Shown one piece after another: positions 8,614 to 61,335 of a stretch of DNA of 61,829 nt (the stretch's first letter is position 1; each line of letters starts with the position of its first letter). The stretch is from Rhodoplanes elegans. GTDB taxonomy: Bacteria > Pseudomonadota > Alphaproteobacteria > Rhizobiales > Xanthobacteraceae. The notes beneath the pieces were generated by a model. The model saw nothing but the letters and a program-made list of their open reading frames with translations. It was not told where the DNA came from and ran no database searches. Position numbers and translations under genes: made by a program. The stretch spans positions 1 to 61,829 of the forward strand of contig NZ_NHSK01000083.1 of the NCBI RefSeq assembly GCF_016653355.1. The letters run 5' to 3'.

Positions 8614-10809
<2,196 letters not shown>

Positions 10810-44689: not shown

Positions 44690-44720
44690 CTCGTGCTCTC
44701 CCGCAGCCGGTCCGCTCGCC

Positions 44721-45821
44721 TCAGCCGTGGCAGGCCCGCCCGGTCAGCATCGGCTCGTCTCCGCACCCGCAGGCCCCGGCCTCCACCTCGGACGCCTCGG
44801 CATCCGCCGACAGGCCGCCCATCGGGCTCATGCCGAGCTTGCTCAGCAGCGCGAGGTCGTGATCGGGGCCGGGGTTCGGCGTGGTCAGGAGCTTCGGGCC
44901 GTAGAAGATCGAGTTGGCGCCAGCGAGGAAGCAAAGCGCTTGGATCTCCTCGCTCATCTTCTCGCGGCCGGCCGAGAGGCGCACGAACGACTTTGGCATC
45001 ACGATGCGGGCGACCGCGATGGTGCGGACGAACTCGAAGGCGTCGAAGTCCTTCTCGTCCTCCAGCGGCGTGCCCTTCACCTTCACCAGCATGTTGATCG
45101 GCACCGACTGCGGGTGCTCCGGCATGGTGGCGAGCGAGTGGATCATGCCGACCCGGTCCTCGCGCGCCTCGCCCATGCCGACGATACCGCCGGAGCAGAC
45201 GTTGATGCCGGCCTCGCGCACCGCTGCGAGCGTGTCGAGGCGATCCTGGAACGTGCGGGTGGTGATGATGTTGCCGTAGAATTCCGGCGAGGTGTCGATG
45301 TTGTGGTTGTAGTAGTCGAGGCCCGACTCCTTGAGCCGGAGCGCCTGCTCGGGAGACAGCATGCCGAGCGTCATGCAGGTCTCCATGCCGAGCTCCTTGA
45401 CGCCCTCGACCATGGCACAGACCACGTCGAGATCGCGGTCCTTGGGGCTGCGCCAGGCGGCGCCCATGCAGAACCGCGTCGAGCCGGCCGCCTTGGCGCG
45501 GCGCGCCTCGGTCAGCACCTTCTCGACCTCCATCAGCTTCTCGGCCGGGAGCTTGTCCTTGTGGCGGGCGCTCTGCGGACAGTAGCCGCAGTCCTCCGGG
45601 CAACCGCCGGTCTTGATCGACAGCAGCGACGAGACCTGGATCTCGTGCGGGTCGAAATTCTGCCGGTGGACCCGCTGCGCCTCGAACATCAGGCTGGGGA
45701 ACGGCAGGTCGAAGAGTGCGCGAATCTCGGCCCGCGTCCAGTCGTTGCGAACGATGCCGCCGGCGCCGGGCGCGACGCTCGTGGCGAGATCGGTGGGGAT
45801 GATGACAGTACGATCGTCCAT
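44721..45821 (-). CDS. bioB: Biotin synthase
   Basis: This radical-SAM enzyme inserts sulfur into dethiobiotin. The 366-residue protein has the radical-SAM cluster motif [13 protein letters not shown], the 2Fe-2S ligand area [34 protein letters not shown] and a C-terminal RLSAGREKM. The last ~25 residues add a cysteine-rich tail (GACGCGDEP). It is the first gene of the biotin/permease operon, 139 bp downstream of madM. Biotin is needed for MadF. Confidence 0.96.
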
Positions 45822-45960
45822 GGGTCGAGACCTGAGTTTGTCGTGTCGACGGCCGGGATACGGGGGTCGATCCCCCGGCCGCCGACGGGTTTTTACGGAT
45901 TTTCGATCCGCTACGCTATCCGAACGTGCCGGCGGGCGTCGGCACAGCTGCTTGGGCGGA
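45822..45960. promoter_or_regulatory. Spacer between madM and bioB with strong hairpins
   Basis: A 13-bp stem with one mismatch (GTCGACGGCCGGG pairing with CCCGGCCGCCGAC) encloses an inner GGGGG-TCGAT-CCCCC. A run of five T residues follows on the plus strand only. A second hairpin, GTGCCG...CGGCAC, lies nearer madM. I looked for the BioR operator core TTATCTATAA and did not find it. The region probably ends some mad transcripts and starts bioB. Confidence 0.5.
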
Positions 45961-46734
45961 TCACCCGAAGATCATCCGCATGATGATATAGCAGACCGAC
46001 GGGCAGACCAGACAGCCGAAACCCGTATAGAAGGTGGCCGTCAGGGCGCCGTAGGGCACGAGGCGGGCGTCAGTGGCGGCCAGGCCGGCGGCGGTGCCGC
46101 TGGTGGTGCCCATCAGCCCGCCGTAGACCATGGCGGCCGCCGGATTCGTCAGGCCGAACGGCTTGGCGAGCAGGGGCGTCAGGATCATCACGGCGATCGA
46201 CTTCACCACACCGGCCGCGATCGACAGGGCGATGATGTCGGAGCTCGCCCCGATCGCCGTGCCGGTGACCGGGCCGACGATGAAGGTGACGGCGCCGGCC
46301 CCGATGGTGGTGAGGTCGACGGTACCGCGGTAGCCGAACGCATAAGCGATGGCGACGCCGACCACGAAGGCCACGAAGGTGCCGATGACGAGCGACAGCA
46401 CGCCGGCGAGGCCGGCCTTCTTCAGCTCCTCCAGCCGCACGCCGTAGGCGGTCGAGATGATGCAGAAATCGCGCAGCATGGCGCCGCCCATCAAGGCGAA
46501 GCCGGCGAACAGCGGAACGTCGGCGATGCCGCGCTTGCCGTTGGTCAGCATGCCGCCCACGAAGGCGAGGATCAGGCCGATGACGATGGCGACGGCGGAG
46601 CCGTGCACCCGCCCGCGGGTGATCTTGTCGGAGAAGGCGTAGCACAGCCAGGTGAGCGCGCCGACGAACACGAAGGCGAAGATGAGCCCACGCGGCTTCG
46701 TCAGCTCCATCAGGAAGACGTTGATCTGGTCCAT
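45961..46734 (-). CDS. madM: Malonate transporter subunit MadM
   Basis: The 257-residue membrane protein has about eight hydrophobic segments and matches MadM, which with MadL forms the sodium-coupled malonate importer of mad operons. Features include [37 protein letters not shown] and [20 protein letters not shown]. It is encoded 10 bp after madL and is the last gene of the operon. Confidence 0.92.
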
Positions 46735-46744
46735 TGTCGCTTCC

Positions 46745-47158
46745 TCAGGCCTTCTTCGCCTGCGCGCCGGCCGGAACGTCTTCGTCGCCGAACGTCGAGG
46801 TCGCAGCCCCGGCCCAGGCCGACAGGATGCGGATGAACGGGAAGAGAACGACCACCGACACGATGCCGGCGAGCAGCGCTACCACGCCGCCGTTGAGCGC
46901 GGCGACGACATTCTGGGTCGCCGCCATCGCGATCACGACCGGAATGTACATGGCGTTCCAGAACAGGATGCCCTGCTCCGACGCCTTGGGCATCATGCCC
47001 TTCTGCTTCAGCCAGTTGGTCAGGAACACCAGGATCAGCATCGCGAAGCCGACGCCGCCGATGTCACCGTCGATCCCGAGCAGCTTGCCGAGGACGAGGC
47101 CGATCGCCGTGCCCACGAACATGCAGATGCCGAGAATCATTACCCCGTAGATGACCAT
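46745..47158 (-). CDS. madL: Malonate transporter subunit MadL
   Basis: The 137-residue membrane protein has four hydrophobic segments, starting YGVMILGICMFVGTAIGLVL, with DIGGVGFAMLILVFLTNWL and the MPKASEQGILFWNAMYIPVV block of MadL. It pairs with MadM. A 63-bp gap separates it from madF, and no separate promoter is obvious. Confidence 0.92.
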   Translation of the reverse strand: MVIYGVMILGICMFVGTAIGLVLGKLLGIDGDIGGVGFAMLILVFLTNWLKQKGMMPKASEQGILFWNAMYIPVVIAMAATQNVVAALNGGVVALLAGIVSVVVLFPFIRILSAWAGAATSTFGDEDVPAGAQAKKA

Positions 47159-47221
47159 TGTTACCCCCAGTGGCCGTTTCGAGGATCGTGGCCCGGAGCA
47201 CGGCTCCGGGCCGATCGCTTG

Positions 47222-47431
47222 TTATTCGATCACCATGATCAGCGCGCCGGGCTTCAGCCGGTCGCCGACCGCGACGCCGATCGACTTGACGGTGCCGTCG
47301 ACCGGCGACACCAGCGGCGTCTTCATCTTCATCGCCTCGAGCACGGCGACCTCGGTGCCCTTGGCGACCGTGTCGCCCACGGCGACCTTCACGGCATCCA
47401 CCTTCGACGGCATCTTGGCTTTCAGATCCAT
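47222..47431 (-). CDS. madF: Biotin carrier protein MadF
   Basis: The 69-residue protein consists of little more than a biotinyl domain. The canonical EAMKM places the biotinylated lysine at residue 35, and the second half mirrors the first (PVDGTVKSIGVAVGD). It accepts the carboxyl group from malonyl-ACP through MadC/MadD and presents it to MadB. BirA, encoded in the same operon, is its likely ligase. It starts 3 bp after madK. Confidence 0.95.
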   Translation of the reverse strand: MDLKAKMPSKVDAVKVAVGDTVAKGTEVAVLEAMKMKTPLVSPVDGTVKSIGVAVGDRLKPGALIMVIE

Positions 47432-47434
47432 GTG

Positions 47435-48181
47435 TCAGACTCCTGGTTGAAGTTCGAGTGCGGGGTTCGGAGCGCGGGACGTCGCCGGACACGGTCCGGA
47501 GCCGAGCGCCCGCAGCGCTTCGTCACGGTCGAGGAGACGCACATCGGCCAGGCCGCGGCCCAGCACGGTGCGCGTTCCCGAAAGCAGCTCGGCGAGCTTG
47601 ACGCCGTAGCCGTTGGCGAGATCGACCTCGGCGTCGAGCCGCAGCGCATGCCGCTGTGCGATCGCGGCCGCGGCCGCCGCGAAGCCGGCGAGCGCCGCGT
47701 CGTCGGGCGCCCGGACGACGAGGTCGAGATCGGAGCCCGTCTCGAGATAGGCGAGGCGGGTGGCGAGCTGGAGCGCGGTCGAGCCGAACACGCCGAGCGC
47801 GATGCCGTGATAACCAGCGGCGTCGAGAAGCGCGTCGAGCGCCGGACCGACCGGCAAGGTGCGGGGCCGCGGTGCCGCCAGTACCTCGTAGGGCGTCCAC
47901 GTCGTCGCGACGGCGGCGAGTGGCGCCGTGATCCGGGCGCGAACGCGCGATCCGTCGTGACGGAACGGGAAGGCGACGCCGAGCTGGACGTGGCCGGCCG
48001 GCACGTCGCCCTCGGCCCGGCAGGCGATGCCGGGAATGTCGTTGTCGGCGAAGGCGGCGGCCGCCCAGGTCGGCAGCGGGGCGCGGCGGAACTGCGACAG
48101 CACGCCGGCCGCGACCGCCTCGGCGAGATCCTCGCGCGCCTCGGCCGCGAGAAAGACCAGGGTGTGGCGGGGAAAGGTCAT
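47435..48181 (-). CDS. madK: Phosphoribosyl-dephospho-CoA transferase (MdcG/MadK)
   Basis: It attaches the 2'-(5''-phosphoribosyl)-3'-dephospho-CoA prosthetic group to the MadE serine. The 248-residue protein begins FPRHTLVFL, typical of MdcG, and carries the nucleotidyltransferase motif FGSTALQ with DLDLVVRAP, plus a later DAEVDLANG with further acidic ligands. ATG 48181 lies 7 bp after the madH stop. The prosthetic-group precursor comes from the madG product. Confidence 0.9.
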   Translation of the reverse strand: MTFPRHTLVFLAAEAREDLAEAVAAGVLSQFRRAPLPTWAAAAFADNDIPGIACRAEGDVPAGHVQLGVAFPFRHDGSRVRARITAPLAAVATTWTPYEVLAAPRPRTLPVGPALDALLDAAGYHGIALGVFGSTALQLATRLAYLETGSDLDLVVRAPDDAALAGFAAAAAAIAQRHALRLDAEVDLANGYGVKLAELLSGTRTVLGRGLADVRLLDRDEALRALGSGPCPATSRAPNPALELQPGV

Positions 48182-48188
48182 GGCCCCG

Positions 48189-49289
48189 TCACCGCGTCTT
48201 GCGCCAGACCGGATCGGTCTTGGCGGTCGCCTGGAGATCGATCTGGGCCTGCACCAAGTCGTCGAACAGTTTTGTCGCGACCGGCCCGACGATGCGGATG
48301 GGTGCGGCGGACGTGCCGTCCGCCGCGGGCAGGCTCGGCACCAGCTCGAGCGCGGTCGCGGCGGCACCGGTGACGAGACCGGGCGGCACCTTCACGACCC
48401 GGCCCTTGATCCGCAGGATGGTGCGGGCGGTGCGCTCCACCGTCTCGGCGGCGTGCGGCGTCGCGCGCACCAGCACCTCGTATTCGGGATGCGTGCGGCG
48501 CCGGCGATACGTGATGATGCGGCCCTTCGGATTGCAGACGTGGCCGCTCTCCGCATAGGGAAAGCTGTCCGCCGTCGGCAGGCCGCCGACGATCAGCTCG
48601 CGGAACCCCTCGCCGGCCGGCGAGGCGACGAGGCCGATGTCGTCGCGCAGCGGCACGCCGTCGAGCGTCAGCCAGCCGTACTCCTGACAGCCGTAGAGAT
48701 CGTGGACCTTGTAGCCGCGCCGCTCGGCGACCGGCAGCAGATCGAGGTTGAGGGGCGTGCCCGCGACCATGATGACGAGGTGCTCGGGAAGCCGGTCCGC
48801 GAGGCCGAGCCTGGAGGCCTCTTCCAGGCTGGCGCGGACGAACGACGACTCCCCGAGCACCAGGGCCGGCTGTTGCCGGCAGAGCGCGACGATGAACGCC
48901 TCGCGGCTGGAACGCTCCAGGAAGAACCAGTCGATCCCGGCGCGCTGCAGCCCCTCCCGCGAGAACACGTTCACGAGCGGCGGATAGGTGACCAGCATCC
49001 GCTGCCCCGCCGTCGCGCCGACCGTCTCGAGGACGCGGCGCGCGACGGCGCACCGCTCCTCGATCTCGCTGAACGTCACGCCGACGATGTTCTGGAACGC
49101 CGACGATCCGGTCGTGAAGGTCAGGTAGGCAAGGTTGAGAGGAGTGTGGACCTCCTCGATCACATGGGCCGCCGTCGGCCCCGCGATGCCCTTGTCGGCG
49201 AGCGTCCGGCGCGGCATCTCGCCGAGCGACGGCACCGTCGCGAAGGCGTTCGCCATCTCTTCCAGATCGTCGAAGGGATCGGACATCAC
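48189..49289 (-). CDS. madH: ACP-SH:acetate ligase MadH
   Basis: It acetylates the thiol of the prosthetic group on MadE at the cost of ATP, priming the enzyme for malonyl exchange. The 366-residue protein has adenylate-forming traits: a TTGSSAFQNIVGVTFSE loop near residue 60, VTYPPLVNVFSREGLQRAG, GCQEYGWLTLDG, and GRIITYRRRR. It is shorter than CoA ligases, consistent with the MadH type. Two start codons are adjacent (49289, 49286). Gap to madD is 22 bp. Confidence 0.87.
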   Translation of the reverse strand: MMSDPFDDLEEMANAFATVPSLGEMPRRTLADKGIAGPTAAHVIEEVHTPLNLAYLTFTTGSSAFQNIVGVTFSEIEERCAVARRVLETVGATAGQRMLVTYPPLVNVFSREGLQRAGIDWFFLERSSREAFIVALCRQQPALVLGESSFVRASLEEASRLGLADRLPEHLVIMVAGTPLNLDLLPVAERRGYKVHDLYGCQEYGWLTLDGVPLRDDIGLVASPAGEGFRELIVGGLPTADSFPYAESGHVCNPKGRIITYRRRRTHPEYEVLVRATPHAAETVERTARTILRIKGRVVKVPPGLVTGAAATALELVPSLPAADGTSAAPIRIVGPVATKLFDDLVQAQIDLQATAKTDPVWRKTR

Positions 49290-49311
49290 GGGGTCCTCCG
49301 GGACCTACGGA

Positions 49312-50193
49312 TCAGGCGGTCTGCGGCCGATACTTATCGGCGACGGCCGCGAACTCCGCCGCCATCTTGGCGACGACCTGCGGACGGGTGACGCGGCCGC
49401 CGCGGGCGGTGCCGAGCGCGGCGCGGCCCTGCGGACCGGTCGCCTCGCCCTTCGCCTTGGCGGCGCGCAGCTCGGCAACCTGCTTGACGACCACGCCGCG
49501 GAGGTCCGGAATCTCCGGAACCAGCGCCTCGACGCCACCGAGCTTGAAGAAGAACTGCGGGCCGGCCGCGAACACCGGGTTGCTCTTGGAGAGATCCTCG
49601 AGAATCTCGATGTCCTTCTTGATGATGCGCGAGACGCTGGTGAGCGGCATCACGTGGATCATGGTGCCGAACTTGGCGTCGAGCGCGACGATGCGGTCGG
49701 CCTGCAGGCCGTGGCACAGGAAGGCGCCCGAGATGGCGCGGCCGATGACGGCGGCGACGATCGGATGGCCGGCGAGGCGGGCCTCGGCGAGCGCCAGCTG
49801 ATAGGCGCCCGTCGACTTGTTCATGCCGAAGATCTCTTCGACCTTGCCGGGGCCGTTCCCGGGCGTGTCGACGACCAGCACCAGCGGCCGCTTCTTGTCC
49901 GCCGGCTTGTCGGCGTCGGCCGCGATGGAGGCGTAGACGGCGGATGCCATCTTGTACCCCTCCTCCATGCCGATGATGCCGGCATAGACGACCGGGAACT
50001 TCTCGTTGAAGGCGTCGGCGTCGGAGGCGATGACCGTGACGGTCTCGCCGGCGAGCTTGGCCGTGCCGACCACGGCGCCGGGGCCGTAGCTCTCGTCGGT
50101 GAACTGCTTGGCGCCGACGACGTCCCGCTCGAAGGAGCCGGGATCGACGATTATCTCGAGGGCGACCAGGCCTTGCCCGATCAGGGTGTCCAT
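49312..50193 (-). CDS. madD: Malonate decarboxylase carboxyltransferase subunit MadD (gamma)
   Basis: With MadC it transfers the carboxyl group of malonyl-S-ACP, here to biotin on MadF. The 293-residue crotonase-like carboxyltransferase C-half has RPLVLVVDTPGNGPGKVEE, AVIGRAISGAFLCHGLQADR and FGTMIHVMPLTSVSRI, matching MdcE/MadD. ATG 50193 has a GGAG site. It follows madC by 34 bp. Confidence 0.93.
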   Translation of the reverse strand: MDTLIGQGLVALEIIVDPGSFERDVVGAKQFTDESYGPGAVVGTAKLAGETVTVIASDADAFNEKFPVVYAGIIGMEEGYKMASAVYASIAADADKPADKKRPLVLVVDTPGNGPGKVEEIFGMNKSTGAYQLALAEARLAGHPIVAAVIGRAISGAFLCHGLQADRIVALDAKFGTMIHVMPLTSVSRIIKKDIEILEDLSKSNPVFAAGPQFFFKLGGVEALVPEIPDLRGVVVKQVAELRAAKAKGEATGPQGRAALGTARGGRVTRPQVVAKMAAEFAAVADKYRPQTA

Positions 50194-50227
50194 GGTGATC
50201 TCCTGATTGCTGCTGCGCGGCGCGGGC

Positions 50228-51184
50228 TCAGACCGAGAGCCGCTGCGCCTGCTTGCGGAAGTCGTCGACGGGCGCGTCGCCGAGCCCGGCCGGATCGTTG
50301 TTGCCGGCGCGGCGCCACACGTCGTAGGCGTCCTTCGGCTGCATCTCGGCGGCGAGCGCGACCAGACGCATCTGCTTCTCGACCAACGCGGCCGAGCCGA
50401 TGCGGCGGAACTGCTCGAAATCGGCGACCGGCAGCTTGCCGAGCTCGGCGAGCTGGGCCCGGAACGCGGCGATGCGGTCGTCGACCAGGAAGTTGCAGTC
50501 GCCCATGATGTACTTGTGACGGCCACCGGTGGTGCGATAGACGAGCGCGCGGTTGGACGCGTCGAACTCGTCCTTGCCCATCTCCTCCTCGATCACCTCG
50601 GGGCCGGTGAGGCCGAGGCGGCCGAACTCGCTCATCAGGATCACGTCGGTGGCGGCGGCGACGAAGCCCATGCCGCCGAAGCAGCCGATGCGCGAGCCGA
50701 TCAGCGCGACCACCGGCACCTTGCCGCGGGCGCGCTGGAAGGCGTCCATCACCTCGGCGTGCGCCAGCAGGCCGGCGTTCGACTCGTGCAGCCGCACGCC
50801 GCCGGTCTCGAACGAGATCACCACCATCGGCAGCAGCTCGGGCGCGATCGACGGAGTCTTCGCCTTCAGCTCGTCGGCAAAAGCGATCGCAAGATCGATC
50901 GTCGTCACCATCTTGGCGCCGCCGACCTCGCCGACCGCGCCGCCGATGAAGCGGCCTTCCTGCGAGATCACGAAGACCGGCCGCTTGCCGATCCGGCCGA
51001 CGCCGGTGACGACGCCGTCGTCGAACTCGACGGCCTCGCCCAGCGCGACCAGATGCGGGCTCGACATCCGATCGAACGGACCGGCGAGCTCGGTGAAGGT
51101 GCCCTCGTCGACGAGGCCGATGGCGCGGTCGCGCGCGCTCGACTCGAGGAAGCTCCGGGCCTGCAGTTTGCTCCAGTTCGGCAT
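50228..51184 (-). CDS. madC: Malonate decarboxylase carboxyltransferase subunit MadC (beta)
   Basis: This is the N-half of the carboxyltransferase. The 318-residue protein begins SFLESSARDRAIGLVDEGTF and shows GRIGKRPVFVISQEGRFIGG, VISFETGGVRLHESNAG, ALIGSRIGCFGGMGFVAAAT and LTGPEVIEEEMGKDEFDAS, all characteristic of MdcD/MadC. In the biotin-independent Mdc enzyme this subunit decarboxylates directly; here the carboxyl is passed to MadF. Confidence 0.93.
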   Translation of the reverse strand: MPNWSKLQARSFLESSARDRAIGLVDEGTFTELAGPFDRMSSPHLVALGEAVEFDDGVVTGVGRIGKRPVFVISQEGRFIGGAVGEVGGAKMVTTIDLAIAFADELKAKTPSIAPELLPMVVISFETGGVRLHESNAGLLAHAEVMDAFQRARGKVPVVALIGSRIGCFGGMGFVAAATDVILMSEFGRLGLTGPEVIEEEMGKDEFDASNRALVYRTTGGRHKYIMGDCNFLVDDRIAAFRAQLAELGKLPVADFEQFRRIGSAALVEKQMRLVALAAEMQPKDAYDVWRRAGNNDPAGLGDAPVDDFRKQAQRLSV

Positions 51185-51202
51185 GTCAGTTCTCCTCCGG
51201 CG

Positions 51203-51517
51203 TCACGCCGCGGTCTCGGCGAGCGCCTGCTGCAGCCGCATGGAGACGACGGCGGGCGAGGCGTTGTTGTCGTTGATGTCGATGGCGACGTCGGCGAGCT
51301 TGGCACGATTGACGAAGGCCTGGACGACCTTGCGCCAGACGGCGTCGAAGCCGCCGACCGGCGTCGTCACCTTCACCTTGACGCCGCCTTTGAGATCGCA
51401 CGGCTCGAGGATCACCTCGAGGTCGCCCGAGCCGACCACGCCGTAGTGCACGGGCGCCGCGAGCCGCACCGTGGCGGCCTCGGCCTTGCAATCGAATTCG
51501 AGAGTGTTGAGGGCCAT
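51203..51517 (-). CDS. madE: Malonate decarboxylase acyl-carrier protein MadE (delta)
   Basis: The 104-residue carrier protein has the MdcC/MadE attachment motif VVGSGDLEV, where Ser30 is the expected site of the phosphoribosyl-dephospho-CoA arm. It carries acetyl and then malonyl thioesters. It lies between madA and madC with gaps of 16 and 18 bp. Confidence 0.93.
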   Translation of the reverse strand: MALNTLEFDCKAEAATVRLAAPVHYGVVGSGDLEVILEPCDLKGGVKVKVTTPVGGFDAVWRKVVQAFVNRAKLADVAIDINDNNASPAVVSMRLQQALAETAA

Positions 51518-51533
51518 CGTGATTCTCCGTGGC

Positions 51534-53198
51534 TCACCAGTTCCGGAAACGGGCCGGCGGGTTGTAGAGGCCGCCCGACCAGTCGACGAGCTCGCGCATG
51601 TTGCGGGCGGCGAGCCGGTCGCGGGTGGCGGTGTCGGGATCGATGCCGAGATCCTCGGCCGTCTTGACGATGCCCTGGTCGCGCAGGCGGCGCGTCTCTT
51701 CGGGCTTCGCCTCGAGGCCGATCTCGGTGTAGCCGGCGACCGCGCGAATCGCCGCCATGCGGGTGTCGAGATTGCCGCAGCGGTTGAGGTAGGCGATGCC
51801 TTCCTCGGTGACGATGTGTGTCACGTCGTCGCCGTAGATCATCACAGGCGGCAGATCGAGCTTGGCGTTCTCGGCGAGCTTCCAGGCGTCGAGCTTGTCG
51901 ACGAAGGCCGGCGCGCGCGCCTCGCCGAACGTCTCCATGCCCTGCACGACGAGCCGCTTGCCGCGCGGCATGTCGCCGATCAGCTCGTGCATGTTGGGCA
52001 CCTCGCGGCCGCACTTGATCCACGAGTCGGTCGAGTGGCGGCGGCCCTTGGCATCGCAGCCCATGTTCGGCGCACCGCCGAAGCCGGCGACGCGGTTGGC
52101 GGTCGCGGTCGAGGAGTTGCCGAAGCGGTCGATCTGCAGGGTCGAGCCGATGAACATGTCGAGCGCATAGTGGCCGGCCGTCTGGGCGAGGGCGCGGTTG
52201 GAGCGCAGCGAGCCGTCCGGGCCGGTGAAGAACACGTCCGAGCGGGCGCGGACGTACTCTTCCATGCCGAGCTCGCCGCCGAAGCAGTAGATCGTGTCGA
52301 TCCATCCCGATTCGATCGCCGGGATCATGGTCGGGTGCGGGTTGAGCACCAGCTCGGTGCACGCCTTGCCCTTCAGCCCCAGCTCCTCGCCGTAGGTCGG
52401 CAGCAGGAGCTCGATCGCCGAGGTGAGGAATCCGATGCCGTGATTGATGCGCTTCACGCCGTACTCGCCGTAGATGCCCTTCAGGCACATCATGGCGAGC
52501 AGGACGTGACGCTCGGTCAGCAGGCCCGGGTCACGGGTGAACAGCGGCTCGATGAAGAACGGCTTCGGCGACTGCACGACCGCGTCGATCCAGTCGGCCG
52601 GGATGTCGACGCGCGGCAGCTTGTCGACGATCTTGTTCACCTGGGCGATGACGATGCCCTTGCGGAACTTGGTCGCCTCGACGATGACGGGCGTGTCCTC
52701 GGTGTTGAAGCCCGTGTAGAGGTTGCCCTCGCGGTCGGCCTCGTAGGCGCAGATCAGCGAGACGCGCGGCGTCAGATCGAGGCAGTAGCGGCCGAACAGC
52801 TCGAGATAGGTGTGGATCGCGCCGAGCTCGAGCTTGCCCTCGCGGATGAACTTGGCGACGCGGCCGGACTGCGGGCCGCCGAAGGCGAAGTCGAGCTTCT
52901 TGGCAATGCCCTTCTCGAACACGTCGAGATGGGCGGCGAGCGGCACCGACGACTGCACCATGTGCAGGTCGTGGATCTTCGCCGGATCGACCTTGCACAG
53001 CGCCTCGGCCAGGAAGTCGGCCTGCTTCTGGTTGTTGCCCTCGACATTGACCTTGTCGCCGGGCCGGATCACGGCCTCGAGCAGCGGGACGATGTCCTCG
53101 GGCTTCACCTGCTTGCCGGCTCCGATGAAACGGGCGGCGGCTTCCATCCGCTGCGCCGTGTCACGCGCCAGCGTGTTCCATTGACGTTCGACTTTCAT
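51534..53198 (-). CDS. madA: Acetyl-ACP:malonate ACP transferase MadA (alpha)
   Basis: It swaps acetate for malonate on the ACP. The 554-residue protein matches MdcA/MadA: GDKVNVEGNNQKQADFLAEA, VKRINHGIGFLTSAIELLLP, VLNPHPTMIPAIESGWIDTI, FGNSSTATANRVAGFGGAPN and PRGKRLVVQGMETFGEAR. ATG 53198 has a purine-rich AGGGGG site; an upstream frame start at 53225 would remove the gap to birA. Confidence 0.95.
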   Translation of the reverse strand: MKVERQWNTLARDTAQRMEAAARFIGAGKQVKPEDIVPLLEAVIRPGDKVNVEGNNQKQADFLAEALCKVDPAKIHDLHMVQSSVPLAAHLDVFEKGIAKKLDFAFGGPQSGRVAKFIREGKLELGAIHTYLELFGRYCLDLTPRVSLICAYEADREGNLYTGFNTEDTPVIVEATKFRKGIVIAQVNKIVDKLPRVDIPADWIDAVVQSPKPFFIEPLFTRDPGLLTERHVLLAMMCLKGIYGEYGVKRINHGIGFLTSAIELLLPTYGEELGLKGKACTELVLNPHPTMIPAIESGWIDTIYCFGGELGMEEYVRARSDVFFTGPDGSLRSNRALAQTAGHYALDMFIGSTLQIDRFGNSSTATANRVAGFGGAPNMGCDAKGRRHSTDSWIKCGREVPNMHELIGDMPRGKRLVVQGMETFGEARAPAFVDKLDAWKLAENAKLDLPPVMIYGDDVTHIVTEEGIAYLNRCGNLDTRMAAIRAVAGYTEIGLEAKPEETRRLRDQGIVKTAEDLGIDPDTATRDRLAARNMRELVDWSGGLYNPPARFRNW

Positions 53199-53221
53199 GT
53201 AGAACCCCCTTGAGGACGTGG

Positions 53222-54055
53222 TCATCGGCTCGCCGTGGCTACCGCGATCGGCGGCCGGGCGTGGCTGATGTCTCCGGAATGGACGAGGTGCTCGTGACCG
53301 GCGGCGTCGCGCAGCACGAGGGCGCCGTCGTCGGCGAGCGCGACCGCCGTGCCGGCGAGCGGCACGGCCGAATCAGAGACGACGACGCGGCGGCCCAGCG
53401 TGCTGGTGCCGCGCCGCCAAGCATCGGCGATCGGCGCGAAGCCGCGATCCTCGAGGACCGCGACCCAGGTCGAGAACGAGTCGAGGCAGGCGTCGAGGAC
53501 GGCCGCGCAGTCGAACGTCCGTCCGGTCGCCGCCGCGAGCGAGGTCGCGATCCCGCGCAGCTCGGGCGGAAACGTCTCGGCTACGATCGCGACGTTGAGG
53601 CCGAAGCCGACGACGACGAAGTCGACGTCGCCATCCGCCGTGGCCGCGGCCTCGGCGAGGATGCCGCAGACCTTGCGGTCGCCGATCAGGATGTCGTTCG
53701 GCCACTTGATCGCGGCCGGCACGCCGAGCCGCGTCACGGCCTCGTGCAGCGCGACGGCCGCCAGCAGGGTCGCCTTGGACAGATCGCGGCCGGGCGCCCG
53801 CCGCAGCAGGAGCGAGACGCAGAGGCTCTCGTCGCGACTCGAGAACCAGCTGCGCTCGCCCTTGCCGCGTCCGGCGACCTGCTCGTCGGCGACCAGAACG
53901 GTTCCGTCCACCGCGCCGGCACGCCCCAGCTCGATCAGCATCGCATTCGTCGAGTCGGCGACCGGGATGCGCAGGACGGTACGACCGATCCTGCGGTCCG
54001 GGCGATCGGCCGAGCAGAACGGCGCGACGAGCCTATCGTGAACCGGGGCGTGCAC
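53222..54055 (-). CDS. birA: Biotin-protein ligase BirA, in-operon
   Basis: It attaches biotin to carrier lysines. The 277-residue protein has the substrate-binding ADSTNAML, the nucleotide loop AGRGKGERSWFSS (a variant of the usual GRGRRGR), AIKWPNDILIGDRKVCGIL and GFGLNVAI, then a short C-terminal SH3-like domain. There is no N-terminal DNA-binding domain, so it is a ligase without repressor function. GTG 54055 follows an AGAGGA site. Gaps of 28 bp to madB and 23 bp to madA place it inside the mad transcript, presumably to biotinylate MadF. Confidence 0.92.
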   Translation of the reverse strand: MHAPVHDRLVAPFCSADRPDRRIGRTVLRIPVADSTNAMLIELGRAGAVDGTVLVADEQVAGRGKGERSWFSSRDESLCVSLLLRRAPGRDLSKATLLAAVALHEAVTRLGVPAAIKWPNDILIGDRKVCGILAEAAATADGDVDFVVVGFGLNVAIVAETFPPELRGIATSLAAATGRTFDCAAVLDACLDSFSTWVAVLEDRGFAPIADAWRRGTSTLGRRVVVSDSAVPLAGTAVALADDGALVLRDAAGHEHLVHSGDISHARPPIAVATASR

Positions 54056-54083
54056 GGCGCGGATCCTCTTCTGCCTCGTGGCC

Positions 54084-55298
54084 TCAGTGACCGGCGACCA
54101 GGCCGATCGTCGAGGCGAACACGCCGACCGCGATCGCCGAGACGATCAGGCCGCAGATGTTGGCGCCCATCGCGACCGGCAGGATCATGGCGTAGGGATT
54201 CGCCTCGCCGACGATCTTCTGGGCGATCTTCGCCGTGGTGGGCACGCAGGACACGCCGGCGATGCCGACGACCGGGTTGAAGTTGCCGCGCGACAGCGCC
54301 CAGATCAGCCAGCCGCCGAGCAGACCACCGATGCCGGAGAACAGGAGGGCCGTCATGCCGAGGACGAGCAGCAGCAGGACGCGGACGTCGAGCAGCGTCG
54401 AGGCCTCGCACAGCACGCCGAGCACCAGGCCGAGCAGCAGGGTCGACATGTAGGTGATGGTCTTCTCCAGGAGCTCCTGGTACGGCTCGATCTCGGCCTC
54501 CTTGATGGCGACGCCGAGGAAGAAGGAGAGCGTCAGCGGCGCGGCGACCGGGAGGAGCAGGCAGAGCAGCGCAGCGGCGACGATCGTGAAGATGAACTTC
54601 GACTTCTGCGAGACCTCGGGGAACTCCATCTCCACTTCGTTGCCGCGGTACTTCGCCGGCACCAGCAGCTTGATCAGGTAAGGATAGCCCGCATAGGTCA
54701 GGGACAGATACAGATAGGCGATGATCGAGATCGGAACGAAGAGATCCTTGGCCATCACCAGCGAGGCGAACAGCACCATCGGGCCGTCGGCGCCGCCGAT
54801 CGAGCCGACCGCCGCGGCCTGGCCGGGCGTCAGCCCGCAGTAGTAGCCGATCACGAGGGTCACGAAGGTGCCGAGCTCGGCGAAGATCGCGATTGTGATC
54901 GAGGCCCACGGACGGGCGAGAATGAAGGTGATGTCCGACATGGCGCCGATGCCGAAGAACAGCATGCAGGCGACCAGCGAGTTCGAGAAGGCGAAGTTGT
55001 AGACGGGCTGCAGGAAGTAGATCTGCATCGCGTCGACCAGCGCGGCCGGCTCGGCGACCAGCGGGGCCAGCATGAGGGTGCCGATCTTCTGGCCCTCGAG
55101 GAACATCACGCCGGCGTTGACGCACATCATCGCGAGGCCCATCGGCACCATGATGAGCGGCTCGAGCGTGCGCTTGAAGCCCAGATAGGCGAGCCCGAAC
55201 CCGATGACGATCAGGACGACGCGCATGACGGCGACGACCGGCTCCTGCGCGAACATGGTCGCGATGCCGGGGAAGATGGAGAGAAGCTGTTGCAGCAT
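54084..55298 (-). CDS. madB: Sodium-pumping carboxybiotin decarboxylase MadB
   Basis: This integral-membrane enzyme of the OadB/GcdB/MmdB family decarboxylates carboxybiotin-MadF and exports sodium. The 404-residue protein has about ten hydrophobic segments and the family's ion-site motif AAVGSIGGADGPMVLFAS, plus GIAGVSCVPTTAKIAQKIV and ANPYAMILPVAMGANICGLI near the C-terminus, which contribute to the sodium site in OadB. It places malonate catabolism on an energy-conserving footing. The 38-residue gene lies 55 bp upstream of its start. Confidence 0.95.
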   Translation of the reverse strand: MLQQLLSIFPGIATMFAQEPVVAVMRVVLIVIGFGLAYLGFKRTLEPLIMVPMGLAMMCVNAGVMFLEGQKIGTLMLAPLVAEPAALVDAMQIYFLQPVYNFAFSNSLVACMLFFGIGAMSDITFILARPWASITIAIFAELGTFVTLVIGYYCGLTPGQAAAVGSIGGADGPMVLFASLVMAKDLFVPISIIAYLYLSLTYAGYPYLIKLLVPAKYRGNEVEMEFPEVSQKSKFIFTIVAAALLCLLLPVAAPLTLSFFLGVAIKEAEIEPYQELLEKTITYMSTLLLGLVLGVLCEASTLLDVRVLLLLVLGMTALLFSGIGGLLGGWLIWALSRGNFNPVVGIAGVSCVPTTAKIAQKIVGEANPYAMILPVAMGANICGLIVSAIAVGVFASTIGLVAGH

Positions 55299-55353
55299 GG
55301 ATTTAGGTCCTCGTATCTCGGTCGGGCGGCCGCGCGTCGCGGGCCGCCTTGTC

Positions 55354-55470
55354 TCACTCGGCGCCGCTGCCGCTCATCAGCTTGTTCAGCAGGACGATCA
55401 CGCCCATCACCGCGTAGGCGATCACGGCCGTGATCGCGTAGGCGGCGATCGTGTAGACGATGACGTTCAT
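55354..55470 (-). CDS. 38-residue single-pass membrane peptide in the mad operon
   Basis: The start ATG overlaps the madG stop as ATGA and has a GGAG site nine bases upstream. The product is one hydrophobic helix (about residues 4-28, including TIAAYAITAVIAYAVMG), then LLNKLMSGSGAE. It lies between madG and madB on the same strand. Sodium-pumping decarboxylases such as oxaloacetate decarboxylase need a small single-helix gamma subunit (OadG) for assembly, so this is a candidate for that role. It is shorter than OadG and lacks its histidine-rich tail. Confidence 0.75.
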   Translation of the reverse strand: MNVIVYTIAAYAITAVIAYAVMGVIVLLNKLMSGSGAE

Positions 55471-56438
55471 GGTCGGTCTCCGATGGAATGAGTCTGGTGG
55501 TCGCCGCCGAGGCAGAACCTCCGCGTCGCGGTTTCGGGAAACGTGCCGTGCTCGATCAGATGCGCGCCGACCGTCACGGAGAGCAGATCCGCCGCGCCGC
55601 CGGGGCTGATGCGCCGGGCGACGCAGGCCGCGTCGAGCCGCTCGATCGCGGCGACGCCGGCGGGCGTCAGGGCGCCGCCGAGATCCATCACGCGACGGGC
55701 CTCGGCACGGATGAAGTCGAGCGCCTCCGGGCCGCCGCGCCACATCACGGTAGTGTCGTCGGCGACGGCGATCAACGCGATCAGCGCATGGACGAGGGCG
55801 CGATCGAGGCCGTGTCCGACGGCGAGCGCGGTGCGCAGCGCCGGCAGGCCGCAGTCGAGGACGGTCGGGAAGCCGGCCTCGACCTCGCCCCGGATGCCGA
55901 GCGTGCCGTGACGCTGGAACAGAATCTCGCCGGCCGTGTGCGGCGTGGCGGTGCGGCCGTGCAGCTCGCGCGCGCACAAGCCTTCGGTTATGGCGCCGAC
56001 CGTGCGCAGCACATCCTCGGCACGCAGCATGTCGGTGGTCCGGCTGACGCAGCCCGCCGCGGCGGCGAGCAGGCCGGCGCAGAACAGCGCGCCGCGCTGG
56101 GTGTTGACGCCGTTTGTCGCGCCGAGCAGCGCGGCGTCGTGATCACGTCCGACAGCGCGGACGGCCGGCAGCAGATCGACGAGCGCGCCGCGATGCGAGC
56201 GGCCGAGCGCCGCGCACTGGAACAGGCATGGCGCGATCGCGGCGGAGGAGAGCATGAAGGTGCGCACGTCCATGTCGGCGTGCGCGCCCATGGAGCGCGG
56301 CGTCACCAGTCCGGGTTTCGGGTGGGAGCAGACCTCGAGGAGCAGCCCGGCGAGCGCCGCCGAGCCGATCCGCCAGGCGACGGCGTCGAGCAGTGCGGGA
56401 CAGACGGGCGTGTCCGGACGGACGGGAGAGCAACCCAC
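55467..56438 (-). CDS. madG: Triphosphoribosyl-dephospho-CoA synthase (MdcB/MadG)
   Basis: It makes the prosthetic-group precursor from ATP and dephospho-CoA. The 323-residue protein has the CitG/MdcB blocks LEVCSHPKPGLVTPRSMGAHADMD, LGATNGVNTQRGALFCAGLL, RGEVEAGFPTVLDCGLPAL and the C-terminal ISPGGAADLLSVTVGAHLIE. It starts at GTG 56438 with an AGGAG site eight bases upstream and is the first gene of the mad operon. Its product acts with MadK to charge MadE. Confidence 0.94.
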   Translation of the reverse strand: MGCSPVRPDTPVCPALLDAVAWRIGSAALAGLLLEVCSHPKPGLVTPRSMGAHADMDVRTFMLSSAAIAPCLFQCAALGRSHRGALVDLLPAVRAVGRDHDAALLGATNGVNTQRGALFCAGLLAAAAGCVSRTTDMLRAEDVLRTVGAITEGLCARELHGRTATPHTAGEILFQRHGTLGIRGEVEAGFPTVLDCGLPALRTALAVGHGLDRALVHALIALIAVADDTTVMWRGGPEALDFIRAEARRVMDLGGALTPAGVAAIERLDAACVARRISPGGAADLLSVTVGAHLIEHGTFPETATRRFCLGGDHQTHSIGDRP

Positions 56439-56708
56439 GACGACACTCCTGTGCTCGCGGGTCCGGACGACGTCGTCGTCGGACGCACGGGGAGCACAGC
56501 GTGCGTGCCGGAAGGCACGTCACGGCTGGAGAAACACCGTCGCTAGGTTCGCGTGATCGCTCGGCGGGGATCGGATCGCCTCGGACGTCGCGTCGCCGGA
56601 CCAGGGGTCGTGGGACTCGCCGCTCGGAGGATCCGCAGGGACTGTCGTGGCCGATCTCTGACGTCTCGCGTGCTCTGTGACTGCGGCCACGCATCACAGG
56701 ACGGCGGC
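56439..56708 (-). promoter_or_regulatory. Long 5' leader of the mad operon
   Basis: About 264 nt separate the predicted transcription start (near 56702) from the madG GTG. Near the gene are a perfect palindrome GACGACGTCGTC (56466-56477) inside a wider imperfect one, and a CGTGCC-GGAA-GGCACG hairpin (56504-56519). Further upstream on the RNA lie several closely spaced NAG triplets (CAGTCACAGAG...GAGACGTCAGAG). HutP proteins bind spaced NAG triplets, but such triplets are easy to find by chance in GC-rich sequence. Confidence 0.45.
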
Positions 56709-56737
56709 AATCTGTTCCCGCCGGCCCGGGCTGTCAA
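56709..56737 (-). promoter_or_regulatory. Sigma-70-type promoter of the mad operon
   Basis: On the minus strand a perfect TTGACA (plus coordinates 56732-56737) is followed after exactly 17 bp by CAGATT (56709-56714). The -35 is consensus, and the -10 shares 3 of 6 bases with TATAAT. Transcription would start near 56702. Confidence 0.6.
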
Positions 56738-56942
56738 TCGGCGGCCGGGCAAGCAGAATCCCGGATGGGCCGTAGGCCGCCGCACTGATTTTCAAACGAG
56801 TTTCGACGAGCCCGGCGAAAAACGCACGGCGGAAATGATCAGCAGGAATGCGACTTCTTAGGCGCGCACCGGAGAGGTATCAATCGCGCTGCGCCGTCAC
56901 GGGAACGGCGTCCCCCCTCCCCCGATCCCGCAGGTGATCTCC

Positions 56943-57359
56943 ATGGACATCGCCACCGACCGCATCGGCAAGCTGGCCCTGATCACAGCCATGTCGAGCG
57001 ACGACGAGGAAATCAGAATCAAGGACTCGCTCAAGGGCGACCCGCACGTCCGACTGACCGTCACCTATGTGAGCGGCCGCAAGGGCGACATCGAGCGGGT
57101 GTTCGTCCGGTCGCTGATCGGCGCCGCCCTCAAGGCCGACACGGTGCCGGAGCGGGCCGGCCCGATCCACGCCATCATTCATGCCGGGCTCGAGGCGTGG
57201 CACGGGCTCACCCACGCCGTCGTCGACAGCTCAAGCCTGAAGATCAAGGTGGCCATCGTGTCGGACGGCAAGTGGCTGGTGATCGCCGCCTACGGCGACT
57301 CGGCCATGCATCAGCTCACCAATCACGAGCGCATCGGCTTCGGCGCCATGCATCTGTGA
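56943..57359 (+). CDS. HutP-like RNA-binding regulatory protein
   Basis: The 138-residue protein matches the layout of Bacillus HutP, an antiterminator activated by histidine and magnesium: start RIGKLALI (HutP has RIGRLSVL), the block PIHAIIHAGLEAWHGLTHAV, then KWLVIAAYG and the end NHERIGFGAMHL. His76, His80 and His128 line up with HutP His73, His77 and His138, which bind the metal. ATG 56943 has an AGGTGAT site. The gene is divergent from the mad operon by about 500 bp. No histidine-utilisation gene is in the window, so a different ligand, possibly malonate, is plausible. Confidence 0.72.
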   Translation: MDIATDRIGKLALITAMSSDDEEIRIKDSLKGDPHVRLTVTYVSGRKGDIERVFVRSLIGAALKADTVPERAGPIHAIIHAGLEAWHGLTHAVVDSSSLKIKVAIVSDGKWLVIAAYGDSAMHQLTNHERIGFGAMHL

Positions 57360-57556
57360 CCGGCGCCGCGTCGCCGCTTCCAGAACCGGGCGGGCGCCGC
57401 GACGCCACTTCGCGACGGCCTCCAACATCCTCCGCCAACCCTCTGTTAACGCTCTATTAACTACGCCTTGGGTTGCGCCCCGGTGTGGCAGAATTGACAC
57501 CAATTCTTCTCGGGTTCGAGTCAGATTGCATCCATCAAAGACGAGGGGATGGACCA

Positions 57557-58366
57557 ATGAAGAAGATCCTGATGGCGACGGTCGCGACCGTCATGTCGAT
57601 TGGCGTCGCCGGCGCCGCGGACCTCTCGGCCCGCATGCCCATGAAGGCCCCGCCGCCCGTGATGGCGCCGGTGTTCTCGTGGACCGGCTGCTACATCGGC
57701 GGCTATGTCGGTGGCGCGTGGTCGGGTGACACGACCGTCAGCACCTACAGCACGTCGAACGCGTTCGGGTCGTACGGCTACGGCTACAGCAACGACTCGA
57801 GCTTCATCGGCGGCGGCACGCTGGGCTGCAACTGGCAGCCGGTCGGCTCGCCGTTCGTGCTCGGCCTCGAGGGCGAAGTCGGCTATCTGAGCCTGTCGGG
57901 CTCGGCCTTCGATCCGACCCGCACCGCGGCCCTGCCGATCGTGTCGAACACGAAGATCGGCGACTGGTACGGCATGATCACCGGCCGTCTCGGCTACTCG
58001 TTCGGCCAGGCGCTCGTCTACGCCAAGGGCGGCGTGGCCTTCGTCGACGTCGAGAGCGGCATCGCCGGCACCGTGCTGGCCGGCCCGGGCGTCGTCGCCA
58101 ACGGCTCGTTCGCCGGCTCGACCTCCGACACCGTGGCGACCTGGACGGTCGGCGGCGGCGTCGAGTGGGCCTTCGACATGAACTGGAGCATCAAGGCCGA
58201 GTACATGTACATCGGCCTGAACGAGACCCAGACGCTCTGCGGCAGCGGCGTGGTCCTCGCCACGAGCACCTGCTTCTCGCACGAGTTCGACGGCATCCAC
58301 ACCGCCAAGGTCGGCCTCAACTACCGCTTCGGCGGGGCCAGCGCCCCGGTGATGGCGCGCTACTGA
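57557..58366 (+). CDS. Omp25/Omp31-type outer-membrane beta-barrel protein
   Basis: The 269-residue protein has a Sec signal (KKILMATVATVMSIGVAGAADL), a short linker (PMKAPPPVMAPVFSWTG), and an eight-strand barrel with alternating residues. Typical Rhizobiales features are CYIGGYVGGAWSG, LGYSFGQALVYAKGGVAF, WTVGGGVEWAFDMNWSIKAE and the terminal HTAKVGLNYRFG. Function is structural or transport. A GAGGGG site precedes ATG 57557, and a TTGACA lies at 57494-57499 without a clear -10. Confidence 0.9.
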   Translation: MKKILMATVATVMSIGVAGAADLSARMPMKAPPPVMAPVFSWTGCYIGGYVGGAWSGDTTVSTYSTSNAFGSYGYGYSNDSSFIGGGTLGCNWQPVGSPFVLGLEGEVGYLSLSGSAFDPTRTAALPIVSNTKIGDWYGMITGRLGYSFGQALVYAKGGVAFVDVESGIAGTVLAGPGVVANGSFAGSTSDTVATWTVGGGVEWAFDMNWSIKAEYMYIGLNETQTLCGSGVVLATSTCFSHEFDGIHTAKVGLNYRFGGASAPVMARY

Positions 58367-58430
58367 TCCGGCCGAAAGAGACTCCGACCCTCCGGGCCGA
58401 AGTCCCAGCAGAGGCCGCGTCGGGTGAATC

Positions 58431-58466
58431 GGCAAGGGCTCCGAGGTCTCCTCGGGGCCCTTTGCC
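58431..58466 (+). terminator. Terminator hairpin after the porin gene
   Basis: GGCAAGGGCTCCGAGG pairs with CCTCGGGGCCCTTTGCC around a TCT loop, with one bulge. Only weak T content follows. It lies 64 bp after the porin stop and before the ArsC-like gene. Confidence 0.6.
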
Positions 58467-58548
58467 GTTCGGGTTCCGGCGCGGCCGCGCGCGGCCCGTC
58501 GCTTGCTTCTCCTGTTACGGGCAGCGCCCGGATGGAGGGTTTGCGACA

Positions 58549-58992: not shown

Positions 58993-59868
58993 TCAGCCCC
59001 CCACCAGCGTCCGCATCACGGTTCCGAGGCCGGCGAGCAGATCGGCCGGGCCGGTCTCCACCACCAGACGGAAGCCGAGATTTGCGGGCGGCACGCCGGC
59101 CGCGCAGCCGCCGGTGCGCGGATCGCGGATGAAGTCGGTCATGTAGGTGCGGTGCTGGCCCTGGACGACCCGCACCCCGCAATTGACGGTGGTCGGCCGC
59201 GTCTCGCCCGCAGGGTCGAGCGCGGCCCGCACGAAGCAGCTCGCGGTCCACTCCCACACGTTGCCGGCGATGTCGGTGAGCCCCTTCGCGTTGGTCCCGA
59301 AGCGACCGAGCGGCTGCGGCGCCGTCGGGCCCGTCTCGCGCGCCGCCTCGGTCTCGTAGCGGGCGAGCCAGGCCTTCGCCGGATCGGCGGTGTCGACCAC
59401 GGGCAGCACCTCGTCGCGGGCCCGCTCGGCGGCGGCGAACACCCACTCCGCGTCGGTCGGCAGCCGGTGAACGACGCCGGTCGCGCGGCTGATCCACGCC
59501 GCATAGGCGAGCGCGTCCCGGAAGCTGACGCCGACCATCGGTCGGCCGGCCGCCGTGCCGGCCTGCGGAATGCGCGGGCAGCCGCCGGCGGCGACGCAGG
59601 CGCCGTACTCGGCCGCCGTGACCTGCCGCGCCATGATCGCGAGCGGCCGCTCCTGTCGCCGCGCCTGCAGCGGCGCGACGACAGGGCGGCCGGCGACCGT
59701 GATGTCGCCGGCGGTGCGGTAGGAGAAGGGGCCGGGCGCCAGCACGACGATCTCGTGTGGCAGCACCGGCGGCGCCGCGGGGGCAAGAACCGCGACGCCA
59801 CCGGCCACCACGGGCCCGGCGAGGGCGGCCGCGACCGCGGTGAGCTTCAGTCCCGACGCGAGCAGCAT
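58993..59868 (-). CDS. nirV: NirV, formylglycine-generating-enzyme-like protein
   Basis: The 291-residue protein has an N-terminal hydrophobic signal and an FGE-sulfatase domain: ARQVTAAEYGACVAAGGCP, MVGVSFRDALAYAAWISRAT, HRLPTDAEWVFAAA, GLTDIAGNVWEWTASCF and a terminal NLGFRLV. Genes of this type directly after nirK are named nirV; their role in nitrite reduction is unclear. The gap to nirK is 87 bp. Its stop codon abuts that of the ArsC-like gene. Confidence 0.88.
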   Translation of the reverse strand: MLLASGLKLTAVAAALAGPVVAGGVAVLAPAAPPVLPHEIVVLAPGPFSYRTAGDITVAGRPVVAPLQARRQERPLAIMARQVTAAEYGACVAAGGCPRIPQAGTAAGRPMVGVSFRDALAYAAWISRATGVVHRLPTDAEWVFAAAERARDEVLPVVDTADPAKAWLARYETEAARETGPTAPQPLGRFGTNAKGLTDIAGNVWEWTASCFVRAALDPAGETRPTTVNCGVRVVQGQHRTYMTDFIRDPRTGGCAAGVPPANLGFRLVVETGPADLLAGLGTVMRTLVGG

Positions 59869-59955
59869 GGCCGATCCTCCGACCCCGGTCCTGCGGACCG
59901 GCGAGGCGACTGCGCCGGTCCGCGGGGAGGCGCGGACCGGCGCGACGTCACCGCC

Positions 59956-61068
59956 TCACTTCGTCACCGTCCGGGCGGCGGAGCCCACCTTGCCGGGCGT
60001 GATCGGGCCGGGCGGCGACACCTGCGTCATCAGATCGTCGTTCCAGGTGCCTTCGACCTTGAAATGCGCCGTGGCACCGAGCTCGACCGCCTCGATCAGA
60101 TTGTGGTTCACGTAGGCGTAGACGCCGGGCTGCAGAAACGTGTAGAGGGCCGCGCCTGCCGAGCCGCCGCGGATGAACCAGGTCTCGAGATCCGTCTGCG
60201 GAGGGTTGCTGAACTTGCCGGTCTCCCACACATGGTCGCCGTGGCCGCCGATCAGATGCGGGCGGGTGTCGCGATTGGCCTGCGAGTGGACGATCATCAC
60301 GGTCTCGCCGACCTTCGCGGTCATGGCGTTCTTGCCCGTGAGGGCACCGACCCGGCCGTTGAACACGACGTGCGAGGGGATCAGCTTGCGCATCACCTCG
60401 CTCGTGTCGCTGTAGGACTCGGCGAGCGACTCGTAGCTCTTGAACTTGCCGGTCTCGTCGCGCGGGACGTAGAGGTCGTTCTCGCCGACATAGTAGATGC
60501 GGTCGTAGCGCAGCGGCTTGCCGGCGCGGTCCTTCAGGCCGTCGCGCGGCAGCACCATCACGGTGCCGCTCATGCCGGAGACGACGTGCCAGGGGATCAT
60601 GCCCTCGGGGGCGCAGTGATAGACGAACACGCCGGTGCGGGTCGCCTTCCAGCGCAGCACCACCTGCTCGCCGGGGTTGACGTGGGTGAGCGCGCCGCCG
60701 CCGAGCGCACCGGTCGCCGAATGGAAGTCGATGTTGTGCGGCATCGTGTTGGTGTCGGGATTGACCAGCGTGAGCTCGACCTGGTCGCCCTCGTGCACCA
60801 CCATCATCGGCCCCGGCATGGTGCCGTTGAACGTCATGGCGCGGAACTTGGTCCCCGCCTCGTCGATCACCACCTCCTTCTCCTCGATGACCATCCGGAA
60901 CTGGACGATCGCCGGGCCGTCCTTGGTGGCCTGCTCGTGCGGATGAACGAAGGGCGGGGCGACGAGATCGACGGTCTTGCGCGGGAGATCGGGGCTCGCG
61001 GCGAGCGCCGGAGCGGCAGCCAGCAGGGCGGCCACGGCGGCGCCCATCAGTACGGACCTGCGGGTCAT
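59956..61068 (-). CDS. nirK: Copper-containing nitrite reductase
   Basis: It reduces nitrite to nitric oxide in the periplasm during denitrification. The 370-residue protein has a signal peptide ([21 protein letters not shown]) and two cupredoxin domains. Copper sites are seen in [38 protein letters not shown] (type 1 Cys and His) and [23 protein letters not shown] 61068 has a GGAGG site. An FNR/NnrR-type box lies about 125 bp upstream. nor genes are not in the window. Confidence 0.95.
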
Positions 61069-61185
61069 CGGACCCTCCTTTGTGCGTCGTTCCTTCGAAA
61101 CCGATGAACGGACGCTAGGAGCGCGACGGCCCAGCTTCGTTGTGAAACGGCAATCAGCGGGGACAGCACGGCGGCGACCGCGGCG

Positions 61186-61207
61186 CTGTTTGCCGAACCG
61201 CAAACAG
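61186..61207 (-). promoter_or_regulatory. FNR/NnrR-type operator upstream of nirK
   Basis: A perfect inverted repeat CTGTTTGC-CGAACC-GCAAACAG, containing the TTG-N8-CAA core of Crp/FNR-family sites. It is centred about 128 bp before the nirK start, which leaves room for a promoter with the site near -40. This fits control by oxygen limitation or nitric oxide. Confidence 0.8.
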
Positions 61208-61335
61208 GAAGGGCGGAGCAGAATCAACGGACGGCGTCGACCCTCGTGCCCCGGACAAGGCGCGTCAGGCCGCAGGCCTCATGCGCCGCAGAGCCGGGGC
61301 CCAGGGGCCACGGGGCAAACGCCTGTCCTGATCGC

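Follow-up and report, generated by a model that had tools for sequence, protein, structure and literature searches.

A HutP-family protein beside the malonate decarboxylase operon of Rhodoplanes elegans and a GUG-triplet element in mad leaders

The window, a stretch of 61,829 nucleotides from Rhodoplanes elegans, encodes a full-length member of the HutP family with the HutP fold, and its gene is divergent from a biotin-dependent malonate decarboxylase (mad) operon that includes MadL and MadM (Table 1). The genomic linkage of HutP to mad is recurrent and strict. The mad leaders carry an element of GUG(A) triplets that is new here. Judging from comparative sequence evidence, the window protein is probably a HutP-fold regulator dedicated to the mad operon and acting on its mRNA leader. 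In Bacillus, HutP is known as an antiterminator that serves one pathway and answers to one ligand. Our literature search, which left subscription journals mostly outside and so does not prove absence from print, found nothing on HutP with malonate genes.

The preliminary description of this DNA had proposed a HutP homologue that keeps the HutP histidines (His76, His80 and His128) and is encoded divergently from a mad operon; all of this holds. The profile PF09021 matches the protein at 96.5 bits over model positions 1-128 of 128 (query translated from 56946; curated cut-off 25 bits), and a whole-genome profile search gave this protein as the sole PF09021 match in its genome. The gene starts with the ATG at 56943, with an alternative in-frame GTG at 56934. 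Structural modelling, which had been suggested as a check, returned the HutP fold: the AlphaFold2 model has a mean pLDDT of 91.5 (input alignment of 17 proteins, the window protein and 16 relatives), and all 11 matches with E<=0.001 in a PDB fold search with this model are HutP chains, the best with a TM of 0.80. In a profile alignment the three histidines fall on histidines of the PDB HutP chains, and they are invariant in 17/17 proteins of alignment A7; we equate them with H73, H77 and H138, which bind the metal in B. subtilis HutP. Family, fold and histidine triad are thus common to the window protein and to HutP of B. subtilis and Geobacillus (PDB 1wmq, 1vea, 4h4l, 4ok9), with about 30-36% identity to Bacillus HutP over the aligned stretch. 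By the NCBI model NF002838, the Bacillus-type HutP equivalog, the window protein is not an orthologue of the HutP of histidine use (33.9 bits, under the cut-off of 155). Two insertions of Bacillus HutP, one of which presumably touches RNA in Bacillus, are absent from the window type in the alignment, which suits another RNA code in mad-linked HutP.

The identity of the divergent operon follows from matches to TIGR03132, TIGR03136, TIGR01110 and the Pfam families of MadL and MadM. With madG starting at 56438, the gap between madG and hutP is about 500 nt. The genes between madA and the transporter genes have tblastn matches in equal order at other mad loci, and they were named after their counterparts by position in the annotated cluster of R. 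capsulatus; the ORF of the AMP-binding-like ligase (48189-49289) has no Pfam match. A candidate madK reading frame in the window contains two stops and was rejected. Bundled with mad are a biotin synthase-like gene (44721-45821) and the biotin ligase gene (53222-54055), and the last genes of the R. capsulatus mad cluster encode biotin transport (ABC, EcfT and BioY). A gene for a TctC-type periplasmic receptor (43691-44689) lies downstream of the mad operon.

Table 1. Features of the mad region in the window, with strand and evidence.
Feature	Position	Strand	Evidence and remarks
madM + madL, malonate transporter	45961..47158	-	PF03818 385.8 bits, PF03817 148.6 bits
acyl carrier protein, two carboxyltransferase subunits, AMP-binding-like ligase	48189..51517	-	tblastn, gene order; starts approximate
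madA/mdcA, malonate decarboxylase alpha subunit	51534..53225	-	TIGR01110 935 bits
biotin--protein ligase	53222..54055	-	TIGR00121 156.3 bits, cut-off 83.1
madB, carboxybiotin decarboxylase subunit	54084..55298	-	TIGR03136 752 bits, cut-off 596.9
madG/mdcB, triphosphoribosyl-dephospho-CoA synthase	55467..56438	-	TIGR03132 297.9 bits, cut-off 282.35
presumed mad leader RNA	56439..56702	-	limits from the preliminary description; putative start
candidate HutP-binding element, altered copy	56535..56566	-	pattern match; position; R. tepidamans counterpart
TTGACA, possible -35 of mad promoter	56732..56737	-	hexamer at equal place in R. tepidamans
hutP-like gene, 138 aa	56943..57359	+	PF09021 match, fold match, R. 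tepidamans ortholog

Among 397 genomes sampled from the order, nine have a HutP over the cut-off and nine have a MadB over the cut-off, and these are the identical nine genomes; because they are related, they do not represent independent trials. The samples from the class (385 genomes) and the phylum (398 genomes), which overlap with the order sample, yielded no HutP over the cut-off besides that of the window; sub-cut-off matches occur in these two samples and in the spirochaete sample. Scanning genome contigs yielded 15 HutP loci, three of them in MAGs and one of these MAGs from the Spirochaetaceae; the hosts include Rhodoplanes tepidamans, four Rhodobacter, Azospirillum, Rhodobium, Breoghania, Roseospira, two Afifella and Pseudovibrio. 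A plasmid collection contributed two more, from R. capsulatus SB 1003 and K. pneumoniae. Since four of the 15 contig-scan loci, judging from the lengths of their contigs, repeat genomes of the order sample, the distinct HutP loci number 9 + 11 + 2 = 22, and 21 of them adjoin mad genes, so that the recurrent proteobacterial linkage for which a neighbourhood survey had been proposed was indeed found. Four arrangements occur: hutP upstream on the same strand (14 loci), divergent (3), downstream on the same strand (3), and downstream and convergent at a distance of about 2.4 kb (1). In R. capsulatus SB 1003, whose mad leader is at about 16630-16930 of L088, the gene (RCAP_RS18130) is annotated as 'HutP family protein'; the gene is therefore already annotated, but its role is not. 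MadB-like genes scoring 467-518 bits were considered as further HutP-linked cases and rejected, as the eight such loci examined (L078-L085) are without a HutP match: tblastn with the window proteins found MadB, weak MadC (29-32%) in three of them, and no match to madG, madA, the acyl carrier protein or HutP. One MadB-like biotin decarboxylase of this set is a second copy in R. tepidamans.

The repeat GTGA-N4-GTGA was first noticed across 15 hutP-madG gaps, some of them from close relatives; the mad strand of these leaders has 17 copies and the opposite strand none, against 0.21 in dinucleotide shuffles. When all triplets were scanned at pitches of 6-11 in 13 leaders (two near-duplicates of the 15 having been dropped), GTG at pitch 8 came out on top (13/13 leaders versus 3.3 expected) and GTG at pitch 9 second (11/13 versus 3.1); in the window leader the GTG pair counted here falls outside the element at 56535-56566. 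A later set of four leaders and two spirochaete gaps has nine copies of GTGA-N4-GTGA in sense and none in antisense, with 0.07 in shuffles; the Klebsiella leader, which belongs to the same phase and lacks the repeat, is excluded from this count. In its commonest form the element comprises three GUG triplets at a pitch of 8-9 nt, closed by a CRCC/GGYG stem. Over the 15 rows of A4, 96.7% of the stem cells pair, and pair 2 is A-U in 10 rows, G-C in four and G-U in one; because two of the four pairs are invariant and one varies only by unpaired cells, covariation support amounts to this one pair and is thin. In 14 of 17 loci, 125-148 nt separate the element from madG, with start codons chosen among the in-frame ones. 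GTGA-N4-GTGA also turns up elsewhere in several loci, within other genes or in the spacers separating them, and a single time in control locus L078. Many mad leaders also have, beside the three-triplet hairpin, GUGA pairs directly 3' of a GC-rich hairpin; in the leaders of L011, L029, L032 and L033 such an upstream hairpin is followed by GUGA-N4-GUGA, and the module as a whole seems to be closed by a short outer helix. Rfam searches gave three off-target matches in the window (44000-58500, to E 1), all below the gathering scores, and no match at gathering score in six loci. The triplet pitch in hut RNA is 7, versus 8-9 in the mad leaders. Hut-like NAG repeats were rejected for the mad leaders: three AGs at pitch 7 occur twice in sense and twice in antisense in the 15 leaders (0.82 in shuffles), and TAG-N4-TAG is absent from all 15.

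Model R1 was built from 15 element sequences, with Rhodoplanes left out. Over 14 loci it assigned 34.3 bits (E 1.2e-6) to the R. tepidamans site, with the next match at 14.1 bits, and on the eight MadB-like control loci it reached a maximum of 13.4 bits. Strong copies of at least 30.7 bits are present at 19 of the 20 alphaproteobacterial HutP-mad loci; 15 of these copies sit in R1 itself and three more are near copies. A genome-wide R1 search of the 20 HutP genomes found exactly one match at E<0.01, located at the mad leader, in 18 of them, and none at this threshold in the genome of the window and in the spirochaete. Among 150 genomes of the order searched with stricter filters, five of the six HutP genomes exceed 37 bits, all five being in R1 or near copies, and the remaining 144 genomes score 25.6 bits or less. 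When the genera were left out one at a time, nhmmer ranked the true site first in its locus in 16 of 17 cases, with E values per locus from 0.36 to 2.4e-6; the single failure is the window.

The preliminary description had assumed a leader of about 264 nt and control of mad through it. The TTGACA hexamer would fit a start near 56702 and hence that length, but a promoter scan of the window leader called nothing at this hexamer. Control through the leader gains indirect support from the GUG element conserved in mad leaders and present in a HutP operon that lacks mad, but the leader of the window holds a weak, altered copy, GCG-N5-GCG-N6-GCG (pitch 8 and 9) with the stem CGCC/GGUG, 128 nt before madG. 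R1 gives this candidate 12.0 bits (E 0.96), which places it sixth in the window, and it is not significant alone; it is identified by its position and by the sister species, not by its own score. In that species the strong R. tepidamans element lies at the equivalent place. Between the two species 25/32 positions of the element and 208/261 of the surrounding leader are conserved, so that the element is no more conserved than its surroundings. A GYG-widened pattern, widened after the window copy had been seen, matched in 6 of 20,000 leader shuffles, and has one further match in the window, at 10775.

The triplets of the window copy are now GCG, and either the specificity of HutP has shifted there or the site has weakened. 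The system of the window organism could be decaying, with HutP intact, a site without GUG triplets, and control weak or lost. This explanation, which we regard as somewhat unlikely, would account for the low score and rank of the copy and for the GCG in all three triplets; however, the window HutP is intact and is 87% identical to the R. tepidamans protein, and the three triplets share one change while pitch, stem and distance to madG are kept.

If the window protein is a leader-binding regulator of mad, its histidine triad would hold a divalent metal and, as chelating partner, most likely malonate. In Bacillus HutP the corresponding pair is Mg2+ and L-histidine, and malonate chelates Mg2+; it is from this chemistry and from the mad operon that we infer malonate as the ligand. 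Loaded HutP would bind the GUG(A) triplets that are clustered in the mad leader at intervals of 8-9 nt; by analogy with Bacillus HutP, the bound protein would let mad be expressed, i.e., turn mad on, either by preventing termination, perhaps Rho-dependent, or by opening the translation start of madG. A simple consensus scan of three leaders (two mad, one spirochaete) found no intrinsic terminator on the operon strand. The idea that the element commonly pairs with the madG start was dropped because the z-scores are too uneven (-4.5 to +1.3, median -1.3, 17 leaders). As a wider and more tentative proposal, this HutP branch, found in alphaproteobacteria and one spirochaete, may use a metal bound by the old triad to sense malonate or similar carboxylates, and may read a new RNA code of three GUG(A) triplets that follow each other every 8-9 nt within a small hairpin, with a drift towards GCG in the genus of the window.

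The ligand bound by such a leader-binding mad regulator could instead be histidine or another amino acid with metal, and malonate use would then be tied to nitrogen or amino acid supply. The triad kept in all 17 proteins is in line with this, but we consider it unlikely: all HutP loci but one adjoin mad, the exception adjoins MFS transporter, BKACE and CoA-transferase genes, nothing there was recognised as a hut gene (though without a dedicated hut search), and the RG residues after the second helix of Bacillus HutP, which we take to contact histidine, are replaced by other residues in mad-linked HutP.

The exceptional locus, without mad, is L034 of the Spirochaetaceae MAG, whose HutP is the only one over the cut-off in a sample of 198 genomes from the spirochaete phylum. 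HutP is followed there by a family III CoA-transferase, the BKACE enzyme and the MFS transporter. One copy of the repeat stands before hutP, right after a perfect TTGACA-N17-TATAAT, and a second before the CoA-transferase gene; none of 20,000 shuffles carries GTGA-N4-GTGA in both gaps. The region 9930-14537 of L034 probably serves another carboxylate pathway, controlled by a regulator of this kind. That the GUG element serves another factor or a ligand-binding RNA, with HutP acting elsewhere or on DNA, is quite improbable, for although the hairpins before the upstream GUGA pairs look structured and linkage alone cannot tell apart the mad-linked and HutP-linked sets, which are almost the same, this HutP operon carries the repeat twice without mad, the threefold HutP hexamer would fit three triplets of nearly equal spacing, and Rfam gave no match.

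MdcY and MdcR are DNA-binding regulators of biotin-independent malonate decarboxylase genes; they too regulate malonate decarboxylase genes, by binding DNA, whereas the operon in the window is neighboured by HutP. Bacillus HutP serves the hut genes, whereas the window type, with no intrinsic terminator found in the three leaders, goes with mad genes in alphaproteobacteria. PMC7430163 describes two clusters of three NAG repeats in the Bacillus hut leader. Both hut RNA and the mad leaders thus have three-repeat clusters in the leader of a catabolic operon, NAG in the former and GUG(A) in the latter. Protein-dependent control in catabolic leader RNA is likewise exerted by ANTAR and BglG/LicT antiterminators, which have folds other than that of HutP and structured RNA targets (PMC8934654). 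If the proposal for the window protein is true, a HutP-type switch would be operating beyond histidine catabolism, malonate catabolism would be controlled at the RNA level, and the control of Na+-pumping malonate decarboxylases would have an explanation. With another pathway, another triplet code and probably another class of ligand, the system would show how a protein that reads triplets can exchange its RNA target and its effector during evolution. It could also yield a malonate-responsive RNA part, and R. capsulatus SB 1003, a laboratory purple bacterium, makes a ready test system.

In K. pneumoniae the mad operon (L089 2315-13231) ends in a HutP-family gene beside a LysR gene. The protein has F, S and Q where the histidine triad stands elsewhere, and the repeat is absent from the 203-nt leader. 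This single case is what one should see if triad and repeat are kept together.

Elsewhere in the window, a multicopper oxidase gene (59956-61227, minus strand) adjoins a gene for an FGE-sulfatase-domain protein (58993-59868, minus strand); by their domains the two, spanning 58993-61227, look like a nirK-nirV pair.
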